Positions 55,134-60,115 of a stretch of 64,000 bases of DNA are shown piece after piece (positions within the stretch are counted from its first letter, which is position 1; the number at the start of each line of letters is the position of its first letter). The stretch is from a candidate division TA06 bacterium (lineage in GTDB: Bacteria; Edwardsbacteria; AC1; EtOH8), in the NCBI GenBank assembly GCA_016235665.1, contig JACRJI010000008.1, positions 372,001 to 436,000 of the forward strand, given 5' to 3'. A model generated the notes under the pieces. It was not told where the DNA came from. It made no database searches and was given only the letters and a program-made list of their open reading frames with translations. The position numbers were made by a program, and so were the translations under genes.

Positions 55134-55904
55134 TTATTTGTCCCTGTATGATGGAACCATCACATGTTGCGGGTTTTTGTCATCCGATGCCCAATGCCAT
55201 GGATTGTTGCGGATGTATTCCCGGATTTTGTGCAATGATTTTTTGTTACGGATGACGTGTTCCCAATAATTACGTTGCCAGATTTTATTGCCCGGTGAAT
55301 TATATATTGCGTTAATTGATTTCGTCGTTTGGTATTTGTAAAATGCCAATATTTGCCCCAATGTGTGTTTGCCCGTCCCCCGTAGGGGCGAGGTCACCTC
55401 GCCCGGTTTTGTCATCCCGTCAACCGGGTTCATCACATCACCAACCGAACCACCCATGGGCGAGGTCACCTCGCCCGGTATTTCGATCCCAACGCCCGGG
55501 TTTGTCATCCCGCCAACCGATTCCCCCATGGACGAAATCGCCACGCCCGGCATTTCAACCCCATCGCCCGGTTTTGTTATACCATCAACCGTACCCCCCA
55601 GGGGCGAGGCGACCTCGCCCCTACAGATTGCATCGTCAATGACAACAATTATCGCATGCATATGGTTGGGCATTATCACATATTCATCCAATATCACGCC
55701 CGAATACCGTTCCGGCATACGTTGCCACCAATCATCAACGATCCTGCCGCATTCCGACAATGCAATTTTGCCGTTCCGTATTTCCCCGAACAAACATTTC
55801 CGGTCCTGGGCGCAGATGGTTATGTAATAGACCCCTTCCTGGGAATAATCGTATTCCGGCAGACGAATGGACCGGCGGTGGAATCTGGGGTTGTTGATAG
55901 ACAT
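55134..55904 (-). CDS. REP-associated tyrosine transposase (RAYT) with internal tandem repeat
   Basis: This 256-residue protein of the Y1/HUH transposase superfamily has an N-terminal RRSIRLPEYDYSQEGVYYITIC, HUH-type histidines in VIMPNHMHAIIVV (His81, His83) and C-terminal WEHVIRNKKSLHKIREYIRNNP with the catalytic-type Tyr near 230. RAYTs nick and mobilise REP palindromes and are often domesticated. Between the two halves (about residues 96-175) lies a Gly/Pro/Met-rich insert of three and a half 24-residue repeats (GEVTSPMGGSVGD type) made by a 72-bp DNA tandem repeat. Without it the protein would be about 175 residues, normal for the family. The frame is intact, so the gene may still be functional. 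Confidence 0.88.
   Translation of the reverse strand: MSINNPRFHRRSIRLPEYDYSQEGVYYITICAQDRKCLFGEIRNGKIALSECGRIVDDWWQRMPERYSGVILDEYVIMPNHMHAIIVVIDDAICRGEVASPLGGTVDGITKPGDGVEMPGVAISSMGESVGGMTNPGVGIEIPGEVTSPMGGSVGDVMNPVDGMTKPGEVTSPLRGTGKHTLGQILAFYKYQTTKSINAIYNSPGNKIWQRNYWEHVIRNKKSLHKIREYIRNNPWHWASDDKNPQHVMVPSYRDK
55386..55620. repeat. 72-bp in-frame minisatellite carrying REP-like palindromes
   Basis: Four palindromes start at 55386, 55458, 55530 and 55602, exactly 72 bp apart. Two read GGGCGAGGTCACCTCGCCC, the fourth GGGCGAGGCGACCTCGCCC, and the third is degenerate. Between them the sequence also repeats (GCCCGGTTTTGTCATCCCG and variants). The whole array is in frame within the RAYT gene. The fourth copy extends to ...CCCCTAC, like the palindrome at 55956. 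Confidence 0.92.
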
Positions 55905-55955: not shown

Positions 55956-55984
55956 GTAGGGGGTAATTCATGAATTACCCCTAC
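55956..55984. repeat. REP-like palindrome upstream of the RAYT gene
   Basis: GTAGGGGGTAATTC / GAATTACCCCTAC is a near-perfect inverted repeat (one unpaired G). Its outer arms GTAGGGG/CCCCTAC match the ends of the palindromes inside the RAYT gene. It lies between the RAYT start and the hemolysin III stop. Confidence 0.85.
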
Positions 55985-59196: not shown

Positions 59197-60087
59197 TTAG
59201 TACATCAGGTCCCGCAGGTGCGAGACCCGGCAGTCGAAGCGCCAGGTGTTGCCCTGCTCTTTGGGACTTTGCCATCCCAGTTCGTTCTGGATCCGGGACA
59301 TCACCTCGTTCTCGCTCCAGGGCAGGTAAAAGAACAGGTCAGCCATCTCGATACCGCGGCCGTAGATACTGGTACCCAAAGCATAGGGACTGCCGAAGAA
59401 ATGCCCCTTGATCATCACCGGCAGGGTTTGGGGCGAAAAATAGGACAGGTTCTTGGCCGCCTCCTTGACGATCCCCCCGATGTTCTTGAGATAGACGTTC
59501 CTGATGTCCTCATCGGGGCTGACCCCCAGCAGGCGGCGCTTGAAAGAGACCTCTTCGTAGGGATTGCGCCCGGTTACTATGCAGTGGATGCCGTGTTTTT
59601 TGGCGATCCGCATGATCGGCAGCCACATGTTGTGGCAGGCGCTGCAGATGATGGGCACCAGCGCCGCGGAAGGCCTTTTGAGCCAGGCCTCCAGGTTCTT
59701 TTTAAGAGTCAGTTGGTGCAAACCCGGCTTTAGACCGAAGCTCACCAGCTCCACCCCCAACTTTTCGGTGGCCTGCCGGATGTTCCGGACGGCTTCGGGC
59801 GCTGTGAACGGGTTCTGGTAATTGACCGCCAGGACATTCAGTCCGTAGTCACAGGACATTTTCAACAGAGCAAAGGTGCTGTCGCGGCCTCCGCTCAAGG
59901 GCACCAGGCACTGGTACCTGCCGCCCCGATGGCGCTGGCGGTCAATTATCCTCAGCAGGGCTTCCTCGCCGTTAAGCTCTGTCTTCTTGTATGTCCGGCA
60001 GTAGTTGCAGACGCCAGAATAATCGAAGCTGATGCCCGGCGCGCTCTCCGGCAAAAGACACTGTATACAGGTTATCAGGTTTTGCAA
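59197..60087 (-). CDS. ATP-pyrophosphatase (N-acetyl sugar amidotransferase-like)
   Basis: The 296-residue protein has an N-terminal cysteine pattern CIQCLLPESAPGISFDYSGVCNYC (C-x2-C and C-x2-C, likely zinc), the PP-loop CLVPLSGGRDSTFALLKM and CSACHNMWLP. This matches the WbpG/PseA-like amidotransferases that modify surface sugars, or other PP-loop thiolases; the substrate is not known. The frame begins at TTG 60087; the 5' flank holds a duplicated AATTTAAATTGCAAA and no ribosome site, so the start is uncertain. recA ends 28 bp upstream. Confidence 0.82.
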   Translation of the reverse strand: MQNLITCIQCLLPESAPGISFDYSGVCNYCRTYKKTELNGEEALLRIIDRQRHRGGRYQCLVPLSGGRDSTFALLKMSCDYGLNVLAVNYQNPFTAPEAVRNIRQATEKLGVELVSFGLKPGLHQLTLKKNLEAWLKRPSAALVPIICSACHNMWLPIMRIAKKHGIHCIVTGRNPYEEVSFKRRLLGVSPDEDIRNVYLKNIGGIVKEAAKNLSYFSPQTLPVMIKGHFFGSPYALGTSIYGRGIEMADLFFYLPWSENEVMSRIQNELGWQSPKEQGNTWRFDCRVSHLRDLMY

Positions 60088-60115
60088 TTTAAATTTTGCA
60101 ATTTAAATTATGAAG

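Follow-up and report, generated by a model that had tools for sequence, protein, structure and literature searches.

Why should the gene for a REP transposase carry, inside its own reading frame, palindromes of the kind on which such enzymes act? The gene considered here lies in a 64,000-nucleotide stretch of the genome of a candidate division TA06 bacterium (the window). In a first-pass annotation, it was described as a RAYT gene that substrate-like hairpins had invaded and in which they had expanded as an in-frame 72-bp repeat, leaving either a tolerated linker or an array selected as a recognised site or a length-variable switch.

The gene, its loop and its array

The features of the locus are as follows.

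55134-55904, minus strand: RAYT/TnpAREP (subclass 2.4-like) coding sequence, 256 aa
55656-55673, minus strand: HUH motif MPNHMH, residues 78-83 (M78, P79, N80, H81, and H83 invariant in a 57-sequence alignment)
55374-55622, minus strand: variable loop, predicted disordered, about residues 95-177, between strand b3 (81-94) and helix aC (182-201)
55200-55223, minus strand: Tyr motif REYIRNNP with Y230 (Y230 and N234 invariant in the 57-sequence alignment)
55386-55620, minus strand: tandem array of 72-bp units, holding four REP palindromes (Tandem Repeats Finder and repeat spacing)
55602-55620, minus strand: REP palindrome copy 1 (the first to be read in the gene), 8 of 9 pairs
55530-55548, minus strand: REP palindrome copy 2, decayed, 4 of 9 pairs
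55458-55476, minus strand: REP palindrome copy 3, 9 of 9 pairs
55386-55404, minus strand: REP palindrome copy 4, 9 of 9 pairs
55621-55624, minus strand: coding-strand GTAG foot at the 5' array edge, with CT directly before it
55382-55385, plus strand: inverted GTAG foot at the opposite array edge (CTAC on the coding strand)
55956-55984, no strand: flanking double-foot palindrome ahead of the start codon; its core (ATTCATGAAT) is not that of the array

The open reading frame (55134-55904) is intact, with H81 and H83 in the HUH motif and Y230 in the Tyr motif, and the gene core is under purifying selection (dN/dS of about 0.22, with dN 0.235 and dS 1.06, in a comparison with the related gene L109). 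The best family match of the protein is the NCBIfam REP-associated tyrosine transposase model. The scores with Pfam Y1_Tnp (20.1, curated cut-off 23) and NCBIfam NF047646 (56.9, cut-off 80) are both below the thresholds, a shortfall that probably stems from the domain being split by the insert. A PDB sequence search returned E. coli TnpAREP (4ER8) as the only match, and Foldseek with the predicted model matched the IS200/IS605 transposases ISDra2 and IS608 as well as 4ER8. The identification of the gene as a RAYT is borne out by the two motifs and this predicted fold.

In the AlphaFold2 model of the window protein, the loop is without secondary structure and falls mostly in blocks with a pLDDT of 36-48 (residues 100-137 and 145-171 are below 50); the core blocks are mostly at 93-98. 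The insert is thus predicted to be a disordered loop outside the confident HUH core. The predicted model of L109, which has half the palindromes, shows the same layout with a shorter disordered stretch, its insert being 48 aa shorter.

Tandem Repeats Finder resolves the stretch from 55386 to 55620 into 3.3 copies of a 72-bp period (score 247). Coordinates and repeat analysis agree with the earlier description of REP-like palindromes located in frame, after the HUH and before the Tyr motif. That description also gave four palindromes 72 bp apart; the spacing stands, but not all four are intact, as the copy at 55530 pairs at just 4 of 9 positions and is therefore taken as decayed. The outer ends of the array (55382-55404 and 55602-55624) carry inverted GTAG feet and form 23-nt arms that are 96 % complementary. 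The array as a whole shows a "double foot" pattern, with GTAG at both edges in inverted orientation. It folds far more stably than shuffled sequences, with z = -7.4 for DNA and z = -6.9 (-131.9 kcal/mol) for RNA. Because the two inner palindromes are without GTAG feet and one of them is decayed, the extra copies may do nothing, the footless ones being more likely by-products of tandem duplication. Elsewhere in the window, two short tandem repeats with a 14-bp period were seen at 331-366 and 60080-60109; they are unrelated to the RAYT gene.

In-gene REPs in the family

The available text of Quentin et al. (2018; PMC6006769) describes REPs within tnpAREP genes, generally between HuH and Y and with the frame undisturbed, as a hallmark of TnpAREP subclass 2.4; some have a "double foot." The members of this subclass are scattered across many phyla and carry the motifs NH[IFV]H, WQ, and YIxNNP, and their insertion, located from b3 to aC, varies in length and sequence and holds short repeats (PMC6006769). 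The window gene resembles them in having the HUH/Tyr (Y1) core fold, WQRN and YIRNNP, an insertion of about residues 95-177 between b3 and aC, and REPs in frame inside the gene, the double foot being that of the array as a whole. Its HUH motif reads NHMH, one conservative difference from the subclass pattern. Unlike the described members, it repeats the palindrome four times at a regular 72-bp spacing; the inner copies are footless, one copy is decayed, and no cognate REP lies in the flanks of the gene. Judged by motifs, fold, and in-gene REP, the window gene belongs to TnpAREP subclass 2.4, and so to the class reported as RAYT group 4 by Bertels et al. (2017). It is a new example and not a new kind, because in-frame REPs were already reported in 2018, as the accessible part of that paper shows (PMC6006769). 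Four elements of the present analysis were not found in the available text of that study: the codon-level null, the measured agreement with REPs in the flanks, the co-variation of core and protein, and the series of copy numbers. A literature search turned up no later paper on internal REPs.

The genome encodes five RAYTs including the window gene, and all five have an in-frame palindrome at the same place, with differing cores. The wider sample consisted of 117 distinct homologous genes from many phyla, taken from whole-genome relatives and a species-genome scan. A palindrome score of at least 8 was reached in the HUH-Tyr linker of 97 of them (83 %, which is not an unbiased prevalence because the sample was picked with an alignment of the five palindrome-bearing paralogues), in the N-part of 9 and in the C-part of 9, and in 11.5 % of synonymous-codon shuffles of the linker. 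At a score of at least 14, the counts were 42 for the linker and 0 for either of the other parts, with 0.09 % of the synonymous shuffles. This null is conservative, since the protein that it keeps is itself the translation of the palindrome. Chance palindromes are ruled out by the shuffles and by the comparison with the other gene parts.

The earlier statement that RAYTs normally act on REPs outside their gene is wrong or incomplete for this subclass, which usually carries internal ones, as seen in the paralogues, in the homologues, and in the accessible part of PMC6006769. Comparison of homologues for the insert and its repeat number, proposed at the same time, found an in-gene palindrome in most of them. 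The initial interpretation was to fall if RAYTs from unrelated genomes without such repeats had a comparable linker; this has come about by half, in that such linkers are widespread but do contain palindromes. Most of the palindrome-less homologues have short linkers and may represent other subclasses. The E. coli RayT/TnpAREP (PDB 4ER8, subclass 2.2) shares the HUH/Tyr fold with the window protein, and the linker encoded by E. coli rayT is 32 aa long and without a palindrome (best score 6 in the gene and 4 in the linker).

Among the homologues, two reading frames run through the double-foot cores. The third frame, in which GTAG supplies a TAG stop, is unused, and the sole core found in it has GTGG instead of GTAG. 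As two frames are used and the stop frame is avoided, it is the DNA hairpin and not the peptide that recurs. A conserved linker peptide is ruled out, both frames and sequences being variable.

REPs outside the gene and growth of the array

Among 67 loci with flanks and a clear in-gene core, the same core was present in the flanks of the locus as an exact match in 13 and as a near match (at most 2 mismatches of 18) in 23, against a background of 0.05 % exact and 0.22 % near in the flanks of loci with other cores (Fisher p of about 1e-36). Genes with more distant REP cores also tended to encode more distant proteins (Mantel test, r = 0.48 with the C-part and 0.24 with the N-part, p = 0.001 for each). 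The flanks of the window gene held no match to its in-gene core; this does not exclude membership of subclass 2.4, because only 23 of the 67 members tested have such a REP. Genome-wide counts of palindromes and cores were obtained by pattern searches. The core of the window gene occurs three times in the gene and once outside genes in the 2.7-Mb genome, and invasion by an abundant REP family is rejected as unlikely for this gene. As there is no flank copy and only one extragenic copy, its REP shows little sign of current mobilisation.

The extragenic copy belongs to a group of three different palindromes clustered between genes (L016, about 1475-1550; G000:C13:56811). The ATTCATGAAT core of the palindrome upstream of the window gene matches the in-gene REPs of L116, L136, and L055, which are of other RAYT lineages, and not that of the window gene; a second copy of this palindrome is present at G000:C15:98617. 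Another genome contains doublets of 47-48 bp, in which two REP hairpins lie between GTAG feet in a REPIN-like manner (G018:C11:27014-27060 and G018:C60:30207-30254).

In-frame palindromes in protein genes are also known from Rickettsia, whose palindromic elements reside inside many unrelated genes. The window palindromes are like these in being in frame within a protein gene, and unlike them in occupying one place in their own transposase family, with a sole outside copy that lies between genes. The GTAG-tagged REPs and REPtrons surveyed by Di Nocera et al. (2013; PMC3733652) are numerous and mostly extragenic. The window REP shares with them the GTAG foot, the hairpin, and the association with a RAYT; unlike them, its family hardly occurs outside the RAYT gene.

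The palindrome occurs once in L135, twice in L109 (72 bp apart), twice in L134 (48 bp apart), and four times in the window gene. Since these relatives hold one, two, and two copies against four here, the array grew by tandem duplication. The proposed in-frame expansion of the hairpins is thus upheld; their origin from an abundant outside REP is unlikely in view of the single extragenic copy. Tandem arrays were seen in 30 of the 117 homologue linkers, with a period divisible by three in 29 of the 30. Silent codon differences between the window gene and L109 amount to 2 of 33 in the array and 30 of 83 in the N- and C-cores (p of about 0.001); over 55280-55624, they are strongly reduced across the array and less so across helix aC. 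From these sequence comparisons, either recombination or constraint at the DNA level could explain the low silent divergence over the array. The linker of the RAYT gene L083 carries a 198-bp duplication that also copied part of the downstream protein region.

Why the palindromes are kept

The palindromes are probably a cognate REP linked in cis to its enzyme inside the enzyme's own gene, one that is maintained as DNA and has been multiplied by tandem duplication. The cognate hairpin would be located in frame in the loop between b3 (HUH) and aC, where nearly any peptide may be tolerated, and would be retained for its DNA, a GTAG-tagged hairpin of the type that such enzymes bind and cut. Enzyme and substrate would thereby travel together on one piece of DNA. 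Slippage or unequal recombination would have duplicated the REP-containing stretch in frame-neutral steps of 72 bp, and one of the four copies would now be decaying. RAYTs of groups 2 and 3, the only groups for which binding and cleavage of the single-stranded cognate REP were shown, depend for both on GTAG and the hairpin and cut at CT, the dinucleotide cleaved in the REPs of E. coli and Stenotrophomonas maltophilia (PMC8266576). By analogy with these, the window enzyme may bind or nick its internal hairpins, and such a linkage would explain their persistence. The edge of the array could be a substrate because CT directly precedes the GTAG foot.

It is unlikely that the position and the repeats of the array reflect tolerance only, with selfish REPs landing randomly in genes and surviving where a floppy loop accommodates them, in the manner of the Rickettsia palindromic elements. 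In its favour, many species have REPs within genes (PMC3733652), the loop is predicted to be disordered, one copy in the window has decayed, and the insertion was suggested to have little effect on activity and was placed away from the active site in a model (PMC6006769, available text). Random landing would, however, make the REP common elsewhere, and the genome holds that one extragenic copy; three of its five GTAGGGG-N-CCCCTAC palindromes lie within RAYT genes. Moreover, nearly every member of the family has an in-gene palindrome, and these palindromes follow both the protein and the flanking REPs.

Very unlikely is a role of the hairpins in the mRNA, by which slower translation or altered stability would limit transposase output. 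The stability of the array as RNA speaks for it, as does the finding that structure in the mRNA limits expression of ISPpu9. In the accessible part of that work (PMC8450116), however, the control is situated in the 5' untranslated region, whereas the window hairpin is in mid-gene, and a function in the mRNA would need neither GTAG feet nor a match to REPs outside the gene. Selection on the peptide that the repeats encode, or on its length, whether as a linker or a length-variable switch, is highly improbable. Copy number varies among the relatives and tandem arrays recur, but the peptide is not conserved and is read in two frames, the loop is predicted to be disordered, and periods that preserve the frame cannot turn the gene off. 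The frameshift form of such a phase-variation switch is disfavoured by the array periods, and all copy numbers seen keep the frame.

It is conceivable, though doubtful, that the internal REP of RAYT group 4 enzymes is a near-obligatory cis element and not a passenger, the carried substrate re-seeding or holding together the specificity of enzyme and REP during horizontal transfer, with the array of the window gene as a multiplied version. A substrate written into the gene of its enzyme bears on how REPs stay matched to their transposase. With cores that vary from one paralogue to another and change together with the protein, this family provides natural enzyme-substrate pairs for testing the rules of RAYT recognition, and the window gene adds a clear series of one, two, and four copies for the study of in-frame hairpin multiplication.
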